Virus record (IMG/VR): IMGVR_UViG_3300036787_000036
Span: 1-20,475 of that record
DNA length: 20,475 nt
Source of the DNA: a virus
Direction: 5' to 3' (one strand)
Both the position numbers and the translations under genes were made by a program. The notes beneath the pieces are model-generated. The model had not been told where the DNA came from and made no database searches. It saw nothing but the letters and a program-made list of their open reading frames with translations. Shown in pieces: positions 5,985 to 20,090 of this stretch. The first letter of the stretch is position 1. The number at the start of each line of letters is the position of its first letter.

Positions 5985-6048
5985 AGAGCGAGTATCTACA
6001 GGGTGAAGCCTGGATGCAGATTGAGAAGCTCAGTTCTCAGCTCGCTCT
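5985..6048 (+). ncRNA. Compact three-way-junction RNA-like element
   Basis: P1 AGAGCGAG/CTCGCTCT (5985-5992/6041-6048). P2 is ATCT/AGAT (5994-5997/6018-6021) continued by CAGG/CCTG (5999-6002/6009-6012). P3 is TGAGAA/TTCTCA (6022-6027/6034-6039, 6-nt loop). Almost every base near the junction is paired. The 64-nt length equals that of the element at 107-170. No hammerhead core motif is present. Another weak stem, TAACCT/AGGTTA (6050-6055/6093-6098), lies between it and the J-domain gene. Confidence 0.45.
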
Positions 6049-6110
6049 ATAACCTAACCACCACTCACATTCTTAGCAGCGTCGCTGCGGGAAGGTTACA
6101 GGGTACGTGT

Positions 6111-6674
6111 ATGTATGTGTACTACGAACACCACAAAGACGCCTCTGGCAAAATTGTGCTCACAGAGCTAGTTCTCTCTTCTTGGAAAGACGGAAGACTT
6201 GGGATTAACTTTGGTAGCAAGATAGAGAGTATGATCTTTGAGATTTGTAAACTCGCTCTCAAGTACGCTCCAGTGGCACAGAGAAGCTATGAGCCAGCTA
6301 CAAATGTTTGGAGCTACTTTGACGAGTGGGGTCAATTCACTCTCATGCGTTTAGTTTCTGTCACGGATTCCATTGCACAAAAAGTCACACTCATTGAGGT
6401 TCAAGATTTAGCAGCACAGGCTGTGAATAAGCGAATTGATCTCTCTGGTAAGCGTGTGCGACCGGAAGATTTCTTCTATAACTACGGCAAACCCGTAGCA
6501 CAAGCTGTGATGACAAAAGAGACTCTGGAGCAAAAGCTGAAGCAGCTTCTAGGTGATACGATTGACAAATCCGCCTATCGCCGTGCTGCGTTGAAGTATC
6601 ATCCTGATCGTAATAACGGCGATGGCTCTAAAATGGCTGAGTTAAACTCACTCTGGAGTGTGTATAATGCCTGA
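6111..6674 (+). CDS. Phage J-domain (DnaJ-like) protein, 187 aa
   Basis: The C-terminus (about residues 135-187) carries a J-domain signature: a basic helix YRRAALKYHPDRN with HPD at 164-166, then a helix ending in NSLWSVYNA. In DnaJ family proteins HPD stimulates the ATPase of Hsp70 (DnaK). Here the J domain is C-terminal and shortened, with no G/F linker or zinc domain, so substrate choice would come from the unrecognised 130-residue N-terminal part. ATG 6111 is preferred, though its SD is weak. The in-frame GTG at 6003 lies inside the structured element. The stop overlaps the next ATG (6667). Likely recruits host DnaK to a phage process. Confidence 0.8.
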   Translation: MYVYYEHHKDASGKIVLTELVLSSWKDGRLGINFGSKIESMIFEICKLALKYAPVAQRSYEPATNVWSYFDEWGQFTLMRLVSVTDSIAQKVTLIEVQDLAAQAVNKRIDLSGKRVRPEDFFYNYGKPVAQAVMTKETLEQKLKQLLGDTIDKSAYRRAALKYHPDRNNGDGSKMAELNSLWSVYNA

Positions 6675-6899: not shown

Positions 6900-7673
6900 A
6901 TGGGCTTTCAAATTCAGAATCCTAAAAACGCCGTAGACGCCAAGCGAGCAGCTATCGAAGCTCGTAAGGCATCCACGGCTCCAGCAGGGACGAATCCTAG
7001 TGCAATCGTGCGCTATATTCCACCCGGCGAGTGTCCAGATCGGAATCGTATTGTGTTTGATGATTCCGGTTCTATGGGCGGGCATATTGAGGATGCGAAA
7101 CGTGGGATGATCGAATACCTGCGGAATTGTATTCTCAATCAAACCTCTGTAGCGATTCATTTTATGAACTCTACAGCGTGTGATACACAGCTTGAGAGTA
7201 ATCTCTTGAAGCTCGCTGCGGATATTCGTGAGATGAATCTACGGAGTGGTGGAACACCATTCTTTAACACTCTCAAGAAAGCTCTTGAAGCTACGCCCAC
7301 GCTGACTCGGCTGATCGCTTTTACTGATGGCTCGCCGACGGATATGCTGAGCGCGGAAGAATCTACTGAAATGTCCTTTAGCTGGGACACAAGTTCTGCT
7401 TGGACCTCCAGCGCCGATGTTATTATTAAGATTGCTTCATCCACTGGCGTTGGTATTCCAATTGACACTGTATATTTTGGCGAAGGCAACGAAGACAGAC
7501 GAGAGATTGTGCTTCTAAAGTACCTCTCCTCCAAAACAGGCGGCTACTTTCTGCACTTCGATCCTGCTAAGGTAAACTTCGCGCAAGCGTTCAAGTATCT
7601 TGCGCCGGTCAATCGCTTGATGCTTGCATCTGCTAGTTTCAGAGCACAAGTAGAAAGCGGAGCACAGAAATGA
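6900..7673 (+). CDS. Von Willebrand factor A (vWA) domain protein, 257 aa
   Basis: The MIDAS metal-binding motif DxSxS is present as DDSGS at residues 54-58. The expected Thr lies in SGGTPFF (Thr119) and the Asp in FTDGSPTD (Asp143). These three sites coordinate Mg in vWA domains and mediate divalent-dependent protein binding. The N-terminal 45 residues are basic and Ala-rich; the rest spans one vWA domain of usual size. TAAGGAG lies just before ATG 6900. The stop overlaps the FtsK-like gene start (ATGA), suggesting a linked function. Bacterial vWA proteins often partner with AAA ATPases, so the adjacent translocase is a natural candidate partner, by inference. Confidence 0.88.
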   Translation: MGFQIQNPKNAVDAKRAAIEARKASTAPAGTNPSAIVRYIPPGECPDRNRIVFDDSGSMGGHIEDAKRGMIEYLRNCILNQTSVAIHFMNSTACDTQLESNLLKLAADIREMNLRSGGTPFFNTLKKALEATPTLTRLIAFTDGSPTDMLSAEESTEMSFSWDTSSAWTSSADVIIKIASSTGVGIPIDTVYFGEGNEDRREIVLLKYLSSKTGGYFLHFDPAKVNFAQAFKYLAPVNRLMLASASFRAQVESGAQK

Positions 7674-8893
7674 TGCTTCCCTCAGAAGCAGCACAAAAAC
7701 AATCCGAACTCCTAGCACAATACAGCCCACTCATTCAGCATCAGGTCACGACGCTGACGAGAAAGCTCTTTGTCCTAGGTTTCGGCGCACTCTTCTCCCG
7801 TATGGTAGAAGGTCCAGTAGTACGAATCTTCTACTTTAAACCTCTAGGAGAACCTAAGTTCTCCAGCATCCTCAACAAAGAAGAAGAATTTGCCGGCTCT
7901 CTCGCTGTAGAATCTGTTCGTGTAGAACGCGCTCTCGGCGAAGTTGCTATCTCTGTTCCGCGTGCAGACCGTCAAACCATACAGTTTGATGCTTGTCTGC
8001 ATAAAATGATGACCTCGGAGCTTACTCGTGGAATGGCGCTGCCTCTGTTGCTAGGCCAGTCCACCATAGGAGAACATCTCTATGCTGATCTTGCTCAACA
8101 GCCGCATTTACTGGTTGCGGGAGCTACTAACTCAGGGAAAAGCGTATTCACCGCGCAGCTTATTTGCTCGCTTTCTCTGTTTCGCGCTCCAGAAGAGCTT
8201 GAGTTTATCCTTGTGGATACTAAGAATCTTGATCTCGTATTGTTCAAGGGACTTGAGCACGTTAAATATGTACTCAACAACATTTCTGACCTCAGAGCCG
8301 CACTTACGGTTCTGCTTGAGGATGTTAGACTACGAAACGCTCAAATGAGTGGGTTGGCGAGGAATATTGGAGAGTGGAATCAGCTTTATAAAGATTGTGG
8401 TTATCTGGAGGAGACATCTCCTGAGAAACTACGCTCTGTTCAGATGATGAAGTACAAAATCCTCATCATCGACGAGCTTGCGGATGTGCTAGATCAGGAT
8501 AACGCTTTTCTAGCAATGATCGAGCGTAAGATGCGTCCACCGTCAATACACTCACTCTTGAAAACAATCGCACAAATCTCCAGGGCCGCTGGAGTACATT
8601 TGATTCTTGCTACTCAACGGCCTTCAGTCAAAGTAATCTCCGGGGATATTAAAGCAAACTTTCCTGCTAGAGTATCCTTCAAACTCCCCTCAAGTATGGA
8701 TTCTCGTGTCATACTTGATGAAACCGGTGCTGAGAATCTACTTGGCATGGGCGATTACCTGTACAAAATAGCAGGTTCCGACACCGTTAAGCGAGCGCAC
8801 AGCGCGTTCGTTTCGATCAACGATATTGCTAACATTCTCGCACAGAACGAGAACATAAGGAGACAGTATGCAAACGCCAGTAGTGAAATGTAA
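7670..8893 (+). CDS. FtsK/SpoIIIE-like DNA translocase, 407 aa
   Basis: Walker A GATNSGKS at 151-158, Walker B KILIIDELADVL near 263-274, and the FtsK-typical ILATQRPSVKVISGDIKANF segment (about 312-331) followed by RVSFKL, the Asp-Ser-Arg segment and the DETGAENLLGMGDYL block. The N-terminal 110 residues resemble the alpha/beta domain that precedes the motor. No membrane helices and no C-terminal winged-helix gamma domain are present, so this is a soluble, shortened motor without KOPS-type reading. It would pump double-stranded DNA by ATP hydrolysis. In a phage it might act in genome segregation, packaging or host DNA handling. Coupled to the vWA gene at the start and overlapping the zinc protein gene by 26 nt. 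Confidence 0.93.
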   Translation: MMLPSEAAQKQSELLAQYSPLIQHQVTTLTRKLFVLGFGALFSRMVEGPVVRIFYFKPLGEPKFSSILNKEEEFAGSLAVESVRVERALGEVAISVPRADRQTIQFDACLHKMMTSELTRGMALPLLLGQSTIGEHLYADLAQQPHLLVAGATNSGKSVFTAQLICSLSLFRAPEELEFILVDTKNLDLVLFKGLEHVKYVLNNISDLRAALTVLLEDVRLRNAQMSGLARNIGEWNQLYKDCGYLEETSPEKLRSVQMMKYKILIIDELADVLDQDNAFLAMIERKMRPPSIHSLLKTIAQISRAAGVHLILATQRPSVKVISGDIKANFPARVSFKLPSSMDSRVILDETGAENLLGMGDYLYKIAGSDTVKRAHSAFVSINDIANILAQNENIRRQYANASSEM

Positions 8894-9246: not shown

Positions 9247-9660
9247 ATGAAATACTACTACGACGGCTACTGGGGCGCTTTCTTCAAACGCTCCGTTGAG
9301 GCAGGCACCGGACCTGCTACGCTCGACAACTCAGTAAAACCTGCGGACCTAGAGCTTATCGGCTTTGGCTACAGTGGCCATCCCTCTATCCTCAACGACA
9401 TTCACTCACGCAACCTTGTAGACCAAGGTCCAATTCCAGCAGGAACGTACACATTCTCAGGTCCATTTACTGACCCTAAACGCGGTCCACAGTGTTGGCG
9501 GCTCGAACCTGCGCCCACGAATCGTATGTTTGGTCGGTGCGCGTTTATGAATCACGGCGACACAGCAGCAATGTCTCACAGTGCCTCAGACGGTTGTATC
9601 ATCAGCCCACACTGGGTAAGAAACTTGTGGACTGACGGTGATACGTTGGAGGTGCTGTAA
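9247..9660 (+). CDS. Tlde1/DUF2778-like L,D-transpeptidase-fold protein, 137 aa
   Basis: The order of motifs matches the DUF2778/Tlde1 family: GPIPAGTYTF (residues 61-70), FMNHGD with His103, and SASDGCIISP with Cys117. In L,D-transpeptidase folds the His and Cys are catalytic; Tlde1 proteins cut or exchange peptidoglycan peptide stems and some are type VI effectors. There is no signal peptide, so a phage copy would need a holin, virion delivery or host export to reach the wall. RBS AGGAGG overlaps the preceding stop (GGCTATAGGAGG). It is the last gene of the operon, before the terminator at 9686. Lysis or entry function is plausible but unproven. Confidence 0.78.
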   Translation: MKYYYDGYWGAFFKRSVEAGTGPATLDNSVKPADLELIGFGYSGHPSILNDIHSRNLVDQGPIPAGTYTFSGPFTDPKRGPQCWRLEPAPTNRMFGRCAFMNHGDTAAMSHSASDGCIISPHWVRNLWTDGDTLEVL

Positions 9661-14032: not shown

Positions 14033-14095
14033 ATGAAAGTATTTTTTGTAGAGTACAACCATTGGCTTCGTGACATAAAGGATCGTGTGCTATAA
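14033..14095 (+). CDS. Possible 20-aa leader peptide
   Basis: AAAAGGAGAATAAGA precedes ATG 14033. The short frame encodes MKVFFVEYNHWLRDIKDRVL and stops as TAATG, overlapping the ATG of the UDG-exonuclease gene, which has no SD of its own. This arrangement predicts obligatory translational coupling: ribosomes load on the peptide and reinitiate. The peptide itself may have no function. Confidence 0.6.
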   Translation: MKVFFVEYNHWLRDIKDRVL

Positions 14096-15183
14096 TGCCC
14101 TACATTGGTCCACGTGGTACACCTACATCCCGCATTTGGGTTATCCTAGCTAGACCCTTTGGCTCTGACAAAGGCACACTCTTCTCAGGAGGTATGGGTC
14201 ATGTCTTCTTTAAGATGCTTCAAGAAGCTGGCATCAATCAATCAGATTGTTACTACACTTCCCGTGCGCCTAATACTGACGATGCTCATGCTTATGTTAA
14301 TCTTGATGCTGAGTTAGTACATCATACTCCTCCAATCATTCTTGTTCTAGGAGACGCGGCGGGTTGGTTTTTGCCGGAGTTAAGAGAGCCTAAACTAATG
14401 ACTACGAGTGCAGGGCAGTTGCAGAAGTACGCTGGCTCTCTGTTGTCAGCGCCGTCACTCTCGTATCCACATTACATGATTCCAATCTACGGTCCTGAAC
14501 GCTGTGTTGCGGATTGGACAGAACGGAACATTACTACCTACGTGGATTTGCAGAAAGTGCGAGATGAGTTTAAGTATTGGCAGAAGAATGGTACGCTTCA
14601 GGCTCTTCCAGAACGTGTAATGAAGTATCACGACATGGATATGGATGAATTGATTGGGTATCTTGAGCGTTTTCGTAGTGCAAAGATTTTGTCTGACGAT
14701 ATCGAGAATCCTACGTACAGAAGTCAAAAGTATTCTCCACATCCAGGGTATCCACTGTTGATGGGTCTTGCTGATTCGGCCACGTTTGGAATCAGTTTCA
14801 AACTCTTTCGTGATAAACCAAGTGAAAATCGAGAGCTTTGGAGGCGCTTGGATGATCTCTATTACAATGTTCCGATTCTCTTGGGTCAGAACTTCTTTAA
14901 CTATGATGCATTGTTTCATAATATGCTGGGCTTTAGGATACGATTTGAGAGAGTCCAAGATACTTTGTTGCGCCATCATATCTTGTGGCCTGAACTGAGT
15001 CATAAGTTACAGTTTATGACCAGACAATATACTCGTGAGCCATACTACAAGGATGAAGGACACGGATGGACGTTGAAGCGTATGAACAAGTACAGGCGTT
15101 ACAACTGCTTGGATGCGTGTGTTACCAGAGAAATTTATGACGCGCAAGAAGAAGAGTTCCAACAAAGACCGCAACTGAGGTAA
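14095..15183 (+). CDS. UDG-like domain fused to DnaQ-type 3'-5' exonuclease, 362 aa
   Basis: Residues 1-150 resemble family 4-like uracil-DNA glycosylases (RIWVILARPFGSDKGTLFSG, then DCYYTS and IILVLGDAAGWF). Residues 195-350 carry the DEDDy exonuclease motifs: Exo I DDIE (Asp202, Glu204), Exo II GQNFFNYD (Asn266, Asp271) and Exo III YNCLD (Tyr336, Asp340). No polymerase palm follows; it is encoded separately at 16526. The pair looks like a family A replicase split between exonuclease and polymerase. Related UDG-exo-pol layouts are known in some phage polymerases such as that of SPO1. Whether the UDG fold is catalytic or only scans uracil cannot be decided here. Confidence 0.85.
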   Translation: MPYIGPRGTPTSRIWVILARPFGSDKGTLFSGGMGHVFFKMLQEAGINQSDCYYTSRAPNTDDAHAYVNLDAELVHHTPPIILVLGDAAGWFLPELREPKLMTTSAGQLQKYAGSLLSAPSLSYPHYMIPIYGPERCVADWTERNITTYVDLQKVRDEFKYWQKNGTLQALPERVMKYHDMDMDELIGYLERFRSAKILSDDIENPTYRSQKYSPHPGYPLLMGLADSATFGISFKLFRDKPSENRELWRRLDDLYYNVPILLGQNFFNYDALFHNMLGFRIRFERVQDTLLRHHILWPELSHKLQFMTRQYTREPYYKDEGHGWTLKRMNKYRRYNCLDACVTREIYDAQEEEFQQRPQLR

Positions 15184-16378: not shown

Positions 16379-16542
16379 TGACAAATCATCAATGGAAACT
16401 CATTCAAGACGACATTCTCGACAGGCGAGGCATAAAGTGGGAGTGGCAGCAGATTGATCCAGACGTGAAGAAAGAGATTCGCAAAGCGTGGGAAGCTATT
16501 CTTAAACCAGTAAAAAGAGGGACACGTGGATCGAGTAACTAA
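16378..16542 (+). CDS. Small basic protein, 54 aa
   Basis: TAATG coupling to the preceding gene supplies translation; a GAAAGAGAAGG stretch is nearby. The peptide is rich in Trp, Lys, Asp and Arg (RRGIKWEWQQIDPDVKKE) and ends in a basic Ser/Gly tail. It overlaps the polymerase GTG start by 17 nt. Possibly a small nucleic-acid or polymerase partner, by position only. Confidence 0.6.
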   Translation: MTNHQWKLIQDDILDRRGIKWEWQQIDPDVKKEIRKAWEAILKPVKRGTRGSSN

Positions 16543-18028
16543 CTCTTACGAGCACGCTCTTCAAGCAGCCTATTATGAAATAGGCAATCGTGGCATCTGC
16601 GTCAACACAGCACGAATCGCAGAGGCTAAAGCCATCGTCAAAGCAGAAGTCACGCGACAACTAGCTATCGCATCAAATCAGTGGGGAACAAAGGTTTTTG
16701 TCGGCGCGGCTAATGCTCCAGATGAGGTTGTCAAAGGTCTTAACGCTGGCGGCGCAATCAATATCAATGCGACACAGGGTAAGTTTGCGCTGCTTACAGG
16801 ACTCAAAACTCTTGGCTATGAAGTTGTCAAGATCACAAAGAAAAACTCAGAGGGAGATTATGAGCAAAACTACTCAACCGGAGAACTCGCCCTACAGAAG
16901 ATGCTTTCAAAAAATCAATTTGCGTATCCCGGAGGAGATCCTGCTATTAGAGCAATTCTCAAGATTAGAGAACTTGGCAAGCTCTACTCCTCTTATCTTA
17001 ACGCTAGATTGCTCAGTAGAGATTCCAACGCGTTCTTTCTTAGTAACTATAACGTCGCCGGAACGCTCACGGGACGACGTTCAAGTAGAAGACATACTTT
17101 TGGATTTGGGAACAATGCTCAGAATTTTCCGAAGCACTCAGACGTAGCATCAATGTACCGGCGCTGCCTTGTCGCACGACCCGGAAACATTTTCCTAATG
17201 GTCGATCAGATCAGTGCCGAAGATTGGCCAGTAAGTGCGTTGTCTGAGAATCATCAAGCACTCAAGGAGCTACGCGATGACACTGACGTTTACGGTCGGC
17301 ACACTCGGCTCGCCGCTATCATCTTTGGTATTCCACTCAATGCAAAGACTCCTGGTGAGTGGAAAGATTCAATGGAGCGGTATCTTGGCAAGAAAACTCG
17401 TCATGCCAGCAATTATGACATGAAAGCTGGTCGTATGAGTGATGCGCTGGCACAAGAAGGATTTAGTTTTAGCGAGAGCGATTGTAACACGCTTCTCAAG
17501 AAAGTCGCTGCTCATGATCCTTCTGTACAGAAGATTTTTCATCAATATGTCAAAGACACAGTTTCCAAAACGCACATACTAACCACGCCGTTTGGTAGAG
17601 AACGGCAGTTTTTAGGAGCGCGACCAAATGACAGTAATTCCAGTGTCTTCAAAGAGGCTTATGCTTATATCCCGCAGTCAACGGTGGGTGATAATACAGG
17701 ATTTGCTGTGCTCAAGATGGAGAGTCACTATGACCTTTCCGAACGTAGAATCGTCCAAGAAGGCCATGACTCGATTGTGCAAGATGTTAGAGATGATACC
17801 GAGGTTGTATATAAGTACCTGCTTCGCGTTGTCGATTCATTTAAACGCACAATCGTGTTCCACAACGGAATTACCGTTGAAATTCCCATAGAAGCAGAAG
17901 TTGGATATGACTTCCAGACAACAGTCAAGATTAAAGAAGTAACTCGTGCTGGAGTTGCGGCGGCGATTGAGAAGCTCAAGGACAAACTAGCGTCATTGGA
18001 ATCAAAGCAAGTTCTAATCACAGCATAA
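16526..18028 (+). CDS. Family A DNA polymerase, polymerase domain only, 500 aa
   Basis: The start is GTG 16526 after AAGAGGGA. Pol A landmarks in order: TGRRSSRR and NAQNFPK (182-203, the template-primer region), motif A MVDQISAEDW with Asp227, the finger segment DVYGRHTRLAAIIFG, motif B GKKTRHASNYDMKAG (about 288-302), and motif C QEGHDSIVQDV with Asp415. Motif C is HDS where family A polymerases usually have HDE. No exonuclease domain is present; that lies at 14095-15183. The two products probably work together as the phage replicase. The protein is about the size of a polymerase domain alone. Confidence 0.92.
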   Translation: MDRVTNSYEHALQAAYYEIGNRGICVNTARIAEAKAIVKAEVTRQLAIASNQWGTKVFVGAANAPDEVVKGLNAGGAININATQGKFALLTGLKTLGYEVVKITKKNSEGDYEQNYSTGELALQKMLSKNQFAYPGGDPAIRAILKIRELGKLYSSYLNARLLSRDSNAFFLSNYNVAGTLTGRRSSRRHTFGFGNNAQNFPKHSDVASMYRRCLVARPGNIFLMVDQISAEDWPVSALSENHQALKELRDDTDVYGRHTRLAAIIFGIPLNAKTPGEWKDSMERYLGKKTRHASNYDMKAGRMSDALAQEGFSFSESDCNTLLKKVAAHDPSVQKIFHQYVKDTVSKTHILTTPFGRERQFLGARPNDSNSSVFKEAYAYIPQSTVGDNTGFAVLKMESHYDLSERRIVQEGHDSIVQDVRDDTEVVYKYLLRVVDSFKRTIVFHNGITVEIPIEAEVGYDFQTTVKIKEVTRAGVAAAIEKLKDKLASLESKQVLITA

Positions 18029-18043: not shown

Positions 18044-19270
18044 ATGAGCAGGGTTCTAAAGAAGCCGTTTCATGAAAGTTTTATCGACTGTGTTAATCCA
18101 CATACCGACATACCAGAGAATTTCATTATCTGGTCGGCACTCTCTCTTGTTGGAGCGGCGCTTAAGAACAATGTGTACTTTCAGATTGGTACATACACAC
18201 TGTATCCGAATATGTTCATAGTGCTTGTCGGACCTCCTGGCGTTGGTAAAGGAGCTTCGATGAACATTTTAGAGCAGATGATTACTGATACTAAACCAAA
18301 TCAGGTAGTCAATACGCTGTCTGATCGTATTACCGCAGAACGTATTATTGAGCGTATCTCAGATGGTTGGAGTACCGCGCCGCAGCTAAAGAATATGCAA
18401 CTTGTGCTAGGTAAGAACGATCACAACTGCTTGCTCTTTAGCTCTGAGATTCGTGTTTTACTTGGAGCATCAGATTGGATGCTTGAATTTCTTGAGGAAG
18501 CGTGGAGTAAAACGACTTATGAATATCAAACCAAGAACAAGGGTAATGTTGCGATTGACAATATGTGCTGCTCTCTCTTGGCTGCTAGTGTACCTGATTT
18601 TCTTAGAAATGTTAATAGAGAAGCGCATATGGTTATTACTGGAGGTTTCTCCTCACGCTGTCTTTTCATCTACGCAGAGAACCCATCGAAGGATTTACCA
18701 TTCCCTGAGCCGCTCAAAAAGAACTTAAAGTCCAAAGCTCTCTACGATAATCTCATCCTCGATCTTCAAGAAATAGGTACTCTTCGTGGAGAGTTTGTCA
18801 TAGACACCGGCGCACGTCTCAGATTTGAGGCTTTCCTACGTCTCAATCGTGCTGCCTCATCAAAGGATGACTCTGAAGCTGTAGCGAATTTTCGAGCTAG
18901 AATAAAAGCTCACATTCTCAAGTTAGCTATGATTTTCAGTGTCTCTCGTGATAACACTCTTCACATTTCTGATATGGATATGGTCAATGCTATAGCAGAG
19001 ATACAAAAGATTCTTGTAAGTTTGTCAAAACTTTTCCGCGGCGCCGGAGAAGGAATGGACGCCGCAGTAACAGCGCGAGTACAGGATTTTATCGAGAAGT
19101 ATGGCAGAGTTTCGAAGATAGAGATTTTCAAAGCGTTACACAGACACTTAAACTCTTCCGAAGCTCTTGATAGAATTCTCTATGTTCTTGAGGCCATAGG
19201 TTATTGTACTGTGGTAAACTCAAATAAGATGACGTTTTATCAACCTGTAGTAAAGAAAGTAGGTCCGTAG
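18044..19270 (+). CDS. DUF3987-like P-loop protein, possible helicase-primase, 408 aa
   Basis: GPPGVGKG at residues 63-70 is the Walker A motif, preceded by a PENFIIWSALSLVGAALKNNV segment and followed by the CLLFSSEIRVLL strand and the LEEAWSKTTYEYQTKN and SLLAASVPDFL blocks. These resemble DUF3987/YfjI-type ATPases found beside phage primases. The C-terminal 70 residues look like a winged helix (RVSKIEIFKALHRHLNSSEA). Walker B is less clear. Position next to the polymerase suggests the replicative helicase or its loader. The SD is weak. The stop TAG shares its last base with the next GTG start. Confidence 0.78.
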   Translation: MSRVLKKPFHESFIDCVNPHTDIPENFIIWSALSLVGAALKNNVYFQIGTYTLYPNMFIVLVGPPGVGKGASMNILEQMITDTKPNQVVNTLSDRITAERIIERISDGWSTAPQLKNMQLVLGKNDHNCLLFSSEIRVLLGASDWMLEFLEEAWSKTTYEYQTKNKGNVAIDNMCCSLLAASVPDFLRNVNREAHMVITGGFSSRCLFIYAENPSKDLPFPEPLKKNLKSKALYDNLILDLQEIGTLRGEFVIDTGARLRFEAFLRLNRAASSKDDSEAVANFRARIKAHILKLAMIFSVSRDNTLHISDMDMVNAIAEIQKILVSLSKLFRGAGEGMDAAVTARVQDFIEKYGRVSKIEIFKALHRHLNSSEALDRILYVLEAIGYCTVVNSNKMTFYQPVVKKVGP

Positions 19271-20007
19271 TGGCGATTTGGAGTATACCAGAGTCGAACA
19301 AGTCCGTGAATGTGGCGCCTCAAGAATCAGTAGCACCTGATACGCCAAATTTTCTTGAGGCTGAACGCCTGAAACTTGAAGCTGAAGACGCTGCTGATGT
19401 AGCATTAAAGTCTGCCAGCGAAATTGTACTTGATGGCTCTAACAAGGTTACTATCCCAGGATATGATTACACATTCGAGGCTCTAGGAGAGAGAATACTT
19501 GTTAGCCTAGACATTCCACTCTCAGGCTATGAGTGTAAGACTTGTCTAGGCAGAAAGCGTATTAAGTATCAGTGTGAGTGTGTGACTTGTGGTAGAGCAG
19601 GAAGTAAGTATACACTGGAACAAATAGAAGATATTCGTAAAGATCTTGGAGACTCTGTAGCAGATGCTCGCGTTTCTATTGTCTGTCCAGAGTGCGGCGG
19701 CAATCCTGACAGAGTTGCCAAAGACGAAATTTGTCCAGAGTGTAACGGTGTTGGTGGTAGAGTTTGGATTCCACGTTCAGCAAAAGAATTCCCTACCACC
19801 GGCGTCGTAGTCTCGATGGGTTCTGTAGCAAGAGAGAAAGCTGAATTTAAGATCGGTGATCGTATTCTCTTTGGTTTCCAAACAGGAACAATGATTCCAA
19901 ACAAGGCTGGGCTTCCGTTTAAGTACATGGATTACTACAACGGCGCAATTAAGATTGGAGGTGCCGAGGCTATGGCAGCTTTTGATTTTATTTTGAGCGC
20001 CAGTTAA
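19270..20007 (+). CDS. GroES-like protein with inserted DnaJ-type zinc domain, 245 aa
   Basis: Seen: a Cpn10 frame ERILVSLDIPL (74-84), then four CxxC pairs (C89/C92, C104/C107, C139/C142, C155/C158), the last a perfect CPECNGVG, and then RVWIPRSAKEFPTTGVVVSM and FKIGDRILFGFQTGT (193-207), which align with the GroES segments after the mobile loop. The zinc region replaces the stretch between GroES strands where the GroEL-binding mobile loop lies. Four CxxCxGxG-type repeats define the DnaJ zinc domain, which binds substrate. Residues 1-70 are polar. The start is GTG 19270, overlapping the previous stop. Inferred role: a phage co-chaperone for host GroEL or an unfolded capsid protein. Confidence 0.85.
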   Translation: MAIWSIPESNKSVNVAPQESVAPDTPNFLEAERLKLEAEDAADVALKSASEIVLDGSNKVTIPGYDYTFEALGERILVSLDIPLSGYECKTCLGRKRIKYQCECVTCGRAGSKYTLEQIEDIRKDLGDSVADARVSIVCPECGGNPDRVAKDEICPECNGVGGRVWIPRSAKEFPTTGVVVSMGSVAREKAEFKIGDRILFGFQTGTMIPNKAGLPFKYMDYYNGAIKIGGAEAMAAFDFILSAS

Positions 20008-20053: not shown

Positions 20054-20090
20054 AAGAAGCCCCACTCAGAACATAGAGTGGGGCTTCTTT
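20054..20090. terminator. Strong bidirectional terminator
   Basis: GAAGCCCCACTC (20056-20067) pairs perfectly with 20076-20087 around an 8-nt loop, extended by AA/TT, giving about 14 bp. TTCTTT follows on the plus strand, and on the minus strand the stem is followed by TTCTTATAATT. It lies between converging transcription units and would stop both. Confidence 0.93.

Follow-up and report, generated by a model that had tools for sequence, protein, structure and literature searches.

A phage family of Cpn10-like proteins carrying a putative DnaJ-type zinc domain within the mobile loop

Introduction

Co-chaperonins depend for their function above all on the mobile loop. In a gene carried by a linear IMG/VR fragment of 20,475 bases, derived from an uncultured phage (the whole fragment is here called the window), a cysteine-rich segment appears at this very position. 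What kind of protein does the gene encode, and what could such a segment do there? A reading of the sequence alone had proposed a GroES-like protein whose mobile loop is replaced by the zinc domain of DnaJ. The mobile loops of co-chaperonins usually consist of about 16–22 disordered residues (PMC6318259), and their docking segment, in which the IVL tripeptide has a role, contacts helices H and I of GroEL (PMC3514286). Here we analyze the gene, which we call Zn-Cpn10, its relatives and its surroundings.

Results

The Zn-Cpn10 gene and its relatives

The Zn-Cpn10 reading frame (Table 1) is a genuine, conserved gene, because dN is well below dS and because about 60 distinct homologues keep the frame. 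In pairwise comparisons of close relatives, dN was 0.05–0.12 versus a dS of 0.5–0.6 (dN/dS of about 0.1–0.2 overall). The Cpn10 core was nearly frozen (dN 0.006–0.03), and the zinc insert changed several-fold faster (dN 0.05–0.26) with its cysteines fixed. The GTG start shares one base with the stop codon of the upstream primase frame (TAGTG). The hairpin of the probable terminator has a minimum free energy of −26.5 kcal/mol (z −7.6).

All of the ≈ 60 distinct relatives came from uncultured IMG/VR phages. Iterated scans of viral contigs yielded 50 distinct sequences, fragments included, and a scan based on the neighboring primase added 11. Since the latter scan is free of selection for zinc motifs, it removes the concern that sampling was biased by the motif. 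Searches of INPHARED with the window protein, L058, L061, L089 and Escherichia coli GroES returned only ordinary GroES or noise; the matches examined were genes of about 83–102 amino acids and therefore too short to hold the insert. A first scan of cellular genomes gave no relative. In a second scan, DnaJ and GroES were matched separately and, among the matches listed, never both in one gene; the matches to the insert were bona fide DnaJ proteins with an HPD motif. Searches of open-licence papers gave no description of the architecture, which, as far as the searched databases and papers show, is without precedent.

Table 1. Positions in the window of the Zn-Cpn10 gene, its parts and associated features
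Feature	Position	Strand	Basis
Protein with C-terminal J-domain and HPD motif, without a zinc finger of its own	6003–6674	+	PF00226; co-occurs in lineage A
DUF3987 primase/helicase-like gene, directly upstream; lineage A synteny	18044–19270	+	Pfam/PHROG; synteny
Zn-Cpn10 gene (245 aa, GTG start)	19270–20007	+	ORF; Pfam Cpn10 above cut-off; homologues; purifying selection
N-terminal extension, residues 1–67	19270–19470	+	Variable among relatives (alignment A8); predicted helix 28–45 (model)
Cpn10 strand β1, residues 68–82 (TFEALGERILVSLDI)	19471–19515	+	Model strands 68–70 and 75–80; VIA start at 68; phage GroES alignment
Putative zinc-domain insertion, residues 85–162 (78 residues), first half of mobile loop	19522–19755	+	Alignments A3, A8, A10; model; profile
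Outer (proximal) putative zinc-ligand pair C89/C92	19534–19545	+	Invariant columns in family
Outer (proximal) putative zinc-ligand pair C155/C158, in perfect CxxCxGxG	19732–19743	+	Invariant columns in family
GroEL-docking segment, kept, residues 163–168 (GRVWIP)	19756–19773	+	Aligned with ordinary phage GroES and Cpn10 structures
Remainder of Cpn10 barrel, residues 169–230	19774–19959	+	Pfam 163–210; model and VIA to residue 230
Probable intrinsic terminator (14-bp hairpin and U-rich tail), 3′ of Zn-Cpn10 gene	20054–20089	+	

Genome context

In the window, Zn-Cpn10 is the last gene of a replication cassette encoding an exonuclease, Sak4-like and SSB-like proteins, a UDG-exonuclease, PolA and a DUF3987 primase. 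The family A DNA polymerase of this cassette appears to be split (14095–15183 and 16526–18028): a uracil-DNA glycosylase-like domain is joined to the 3′–5′ exonuclease part, and the polymerase part lies in a separate gene. In the phages that we call lineage A, all 60 informative loci had Zn-Cpn10 after the DUF3987 primase. Altogether, 79 primase loci were inspected: 60 had Zn-Cpn10 downstream, five were without it because the contig ends, and 14 formed a distant group (25–27% identity). Cpn10 was absent from the nine records of this distant group that were searched. In a second lineage (lineage B: L055, L058, L061, L081, L092, L094, L096, L098, L102 and near copies), every contig carries Zn-Cpn10 directly upstream of the terminase and portal genes. 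An ordinary phage GroES gene also adjoins the portal gene in DSL-LC05. GroEL (Cpn60) was found in none of 30 records, many of which may be incomplete.

The window also encodes a J-domain protein. Such a protein was encoded by 33 of the 35 records of lineage A, but was seen in 0 of 6 lineage B records and in 0 of 9 outgroup primase phages, counts in which incomplete records could hide members. The HPD motif was intact in all 20 relatives that were fetched. Since lineage A is one related clade, the 33 co-occurrences are not independent events.

Other genes of the window were noted in passing. A Von Willebrand A-like protein (6900–7673) carries a DDSGSMGG motif, its VWA match being slightly below the Pfam cut-off; its gene adjoins one for an FtsK/SpoIIIE-like ATPase (7670–8893). 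A protein encoded at 2320–2943 ends in a long Ala/Tyr-rich repeat and has no Pfam match. A Tlde1-domain protein (PF10908, E 4.6e-10) is encoded in the early region (9247–9660).

The flanks of the insert are predicted to form one Cpn10 barrel

The 245-residue protein matches the Pfam Cpn10 model PF00166 with 27.4 bits (E 3.4e-6; cut-off 21.1), and the PHROG GroES profile matches it as well. The PF00166 cut-off was exceeded in 24 of 30 records. In a 14-member set (A4), Cpn10 was matched in all 14 and the DnaJ CXXCXGXG model in 13, at E values up to 1.

AlphaFold on the single sequence gave a useless model (pLDDT 36), and the model used here is the one obtained from an alignment of 44 homologues. 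Its mean pLDDT is 83.4, with about 90–98 across residues 101–160. Using VIA-align, residues 68–230 of this model superimposed on GroES (8wuc) with a Z-score of 10.1 over 87 residues at 2.7 Å; human Hsp10 and T4 gp31 followed with Z-scores of 10.0 and 9.9, and the top unrelated fold reached 6.7. Foldseek was concordant with a Cpn10 fold both in the PDB and among viral models. Matches to alcohol dehydrogenase-like proteins reached Z-scores of 6.7 at most and reflect the common GroES-like fold, not functional kinship. The lists from both programs were filled by barrel matches and are thus no test of the zinc domain. In the model, then, both flanks of the insert build a single Cpn10 barrel, in agreement with the sequence-only reading.

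Alignment with ordinary phage GroES placed the insert between strand β1 and the docking segment. The cysteines are therefore at the mobile-loop position, as had been proposed; the model and the alignments gave no sign that the barrel is missing or that the cysteines belong to a zinc ribbon outside the loop. The notion that the loop is replaced has to be revised, however. Only its first half is replaced: since the docking segment GGRVWIP (residues 162–168; GGIVL in GroES) is kept immediately after the last CxxCxGxG, the loop is better described as extended. At the sequence level, GRVWIP aligns to GGILLP/GGIVL and corresponds to GIVL/GIMLP. The version in the window is unusual, and a hydrophobic docking segment was present in every relative that was read at that position. 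Invariant in the 44 sequences were D81, G86, E88, C89, C92, C155, C158, G160, P168, G178, S182, G184 and G206.

A fixed outer and a modular inner cysteine site

The window protein contains the CxxC motifs C89/C92, C104/C107, C139/C142 and C155/C158, the last being part of a perfect CxxCxGxG. The four pairs had been noted in the sequence-only reading, and the perfect last motif is borne out, but the conserved second pair is a different one. In the family alignment, the conserved pairs are C89/C92, C102/C104, C139/C142 and C155/C158; the second is thus a C-x-C, and C107 is changed to A or S in L024 and L025–L028, relatives at 60% identity.

The outer pairs C89/C92 and C155/C158 were also intact in the 11 distinct sequences that the primase-based scan had added without regard to zinc motifs. 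The number of pairs per insert is two in L048, L050, L102, L108, L110, L111, L112 and L211, four in most relatives, window included, and six in L071. In a tree built from the Cpn10 core alone, the two-pair forms require seven changes, at least five of which are forced by well-supported branches. Insert length beyond the outer cysteine pair varies freely. The outer site is thus constant across the family, and the inner one behaves as a module. Such a pattern fits motifs 1+4 and 2+3 acting as separate zinc sites, as in DnaJ, and the insert cysteines would then bind zinc.

Some members carry further elaborations. The mobile-loop insert encoded by L071 (9845–10567) has six CxxC motifs (13 cysteines) and possibly three zinc sites. 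In L096 (5049–5729), a second zinc-type insertion, with two CxxC motifs, occupies the roof loop of the barrel. Other large roof-loop insertions were seen in L082, L106, L108 and L111.

Kinship of the insert with the DnaJ zinc domain

A profile built from the 44 members matched Cpn10 chains among PDB sequences at profile positions 107–171 (best E 2e-12) and the zinc domain of E. coli DnaJ (1exk) at positions 51–106 (E 0.0013). Inserts were also scored with a profile made from 47 genuine DnaJ zinc domains and compared with 200 shuffles. The inserts of L055, L058 and L094 outscored 200 of 200 shuffles that preserved both Cys and Gly. For the window insert, 42 of 200 such shuffles scored as high, and it beat 199 of 200 shuffles that preserved Cys only. 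L055, L058 and L094 have three perfect CxxCxGxG motifs and a near-perfect fourth, making a near-textbook DnaJ zinc domain, and the window has a single perfect motif; four perfect motifs were found in none of these. The best score against PF00684 was 25.7 bits (L058), below the curated cut-off of 32.7, and the window gave no match.

The DnaJ-like character read from the sequence thus has support at the level of the family, where the least diverged members L055, L058 and L094 beat the shuffles and thereby speak for DnaJ ancestry; the window's own insert has diverged too far to reveal such ancestry on its own, and for it this origin is presumed from its relatives. Because the PF00684 cut-off was not reached and four CxxCxGxG motifs were not found, the protein is not filed as a DnaJ family member. 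It belongs with the Cpn10 co-chaperonins.

Discussion

Zn-Cpn10 shares with GroES and Hsp10 (PF00166) the barrel, the position of the docking segment and the Gly-Asp turn of the second half; it differs from them by the zinc insertion between β1 and the docking segment and by an N-terminal extension, at about 16–25% identity in aligned structures. The likeness to T4 gp31 extends to the Cpn10 fold, to being phage-encoded without a phage GroEL found, to a longer mobile loop and to a likely head-protein client. However, the gp31 loop has 22 disordered residues, whereas that of Zn-Cpn10 has about 78 residues and eight conserved cysteines; we know of no zinc domain in gp31. In the GroES of Helicobacter pylori (HspA), a Cys/His-rich segment that binds metal has likewise been added, but at the C-terminus and not in the loop. 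The paired CxxCxGxG motifs, with a likely 1+4 and 2+3 pairing, resemble the DnaJ cysteine-rich domain (PF00684, 1exk), most strongly in L055, L058 and L094. In contrast to DnaJ, the Zn-Cpn10 chain is without a J-domain or DnaJ C-terminal domains and scores below the Pfam cut-off, and in the window insert only one motif is perfect, the second pair is a C-x-C and the spacer is helical. The chloroplast chaperones BSD2 and ZnJ2 similarly have a DnaJ-type zinc domain separate from a J-domain, but as stand-alone proteins outside any GroES barrel. Such DnaJ-type domains act on their own as client-protecting chaperones (PMC5818400).

Taken together, we consider it probable that Zn-Cpn10 is a gp31-like phage co-chaperonin for host GroEL to which a DnaJ-like zinc hairpin adds contacts with the client, with GroEL or with both. 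The co-chaperonin role is likely, and the role of the hairpin is what we infer from its position and kinship. The phage lid would cap host GroEL, replacing or competing with host GroES, and fold phage proteins. A single zinc, bound by the outer CxxC pairs, would clamp the loop at its root. The docking segment follows directly, and the hairpin would be lengthened where a second or, in some cases, a third zinc site is added. Since the insert lies directly before the segment that contacts GroEL, it would be at the lid–GroEL interface, most likely at the rim of the lid or facing the client and the GroEL apical domain. If the lid is heptameric, as we would expect, the zinc domain would be present seven times per ring. 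With these added contacts, the phage protein would gain an advantage over the GroES of the host.

The clients would most likely be head proteins, after the manner of T4 gp31, which folds the capsid protein gp23 and has longer loops (PMC6318259). The proximity of the lineage B gene to terminase and portal genes, and that of ordinary GroES to the portal gene in DSL-LC05, speak for this link. In lineage A the gene ends a replication cassette and not a head module, and the client could therefore be a replication protein.

Does the hairpin touch the client at all? It may act as a clamp or spacer only, lengthening and stiffening the loop and so tuning GroEL affinity or chamber size. The only invariant part is the outer pair closing the root of the loop, with length varying beyond it, and the longer loops of gp31 accompany an 8% larger chamber (PMC6318259). 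A spacer would need neither the rapid amino acid evolution of the insert nor the DnaJ-like sequence beyond Cys and Gly seen in L055, L058 and L094, and we give this explanation a substantial, though minority, share of the probability. In DnaJ, zinc site I consists of motifs 1 and 4, and we take the invariant outer motifs of Zn-Cpn10 to be this site. According to the account of Linke 2003 in PMC6584821, disruption of site I, but not of site II, ends the protection of clients from aggregation. Together with the assignment of the outer motifs to site I, this favours client contact, to which a structural clamp alone is nevertheless a serious rival. A related doubt is whether the insert derives from DnaJ in the first place, or whether a zinc ribbon of other origin arose within the loop and acquired CxxCxGxG by convergence. 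The window insert scores no better than Cys/Gly-preserving shuffles, and for the one-zinc forms, matches to FmdB and other ribbons are about as good; convergence is nonetheless rather unlikely, given the three inserts that beat every such shuffle, the match of the family profile to 1exk, and genome matches to the insert that are bona fide DnaJ proteins.

Two further explanations assign the protein to other partners, and both appear improbable to us. The phage J protein and the lid could be a split DnaJ, the former recruiting DnaK and the zinc domain taking the client for handover from DnaK to GroEL. The distribution of the J protein over lineage A, lineage B and the outgroup and its intact HPD motif are in line with this idea, but co-occurrence in a single clade may merely reflect shared ancestry. 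Moreover, the zinc domains closest to that of DnaJ occur in lineage B, yet no J protein was detected in its six records, and J protein and zinc domain are therefore not obligate partners. The inner motifs of the DnaJ zinc domain are the DnaK-related ones, and it is these that are dispensable here. We hold it to be a similarly long shot that the lid binds unfolded clients by seven DnaJ-type zinc hairpins, with the separate phage J-domain protein in lineage A, such that viral proteins join the Hsp70 and chaperonin systems. The other explanation has the Cpn10 fold recruited for a job independent of GroEL, in which the zinc domain would bind nucleic acid or else a protein of the replication machinery. 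The position of the lineage A gene directly after the primase, in a cassette of polymerase, primase and recombinase genes, would suit such a job, but the hydrophobic docking segment of all relatives read there and the place of the lineage B gene beside terminase and portal argue against it.

As a co-chaperonin, Zn-Cpn10 would represent a whole phage clade with a zinc domain in the mobile loop, which grows or shrinks by one zinc site while its root stays fixed. The members with two, four or six cysteine pairs on one scaffold form a natural series for loop length, rigidity and client contact in the GroEL cycle. The family suggests that phages fuse Hsp40 and Hsp10 functions and may thereby capture the folding capacity of their hosts.
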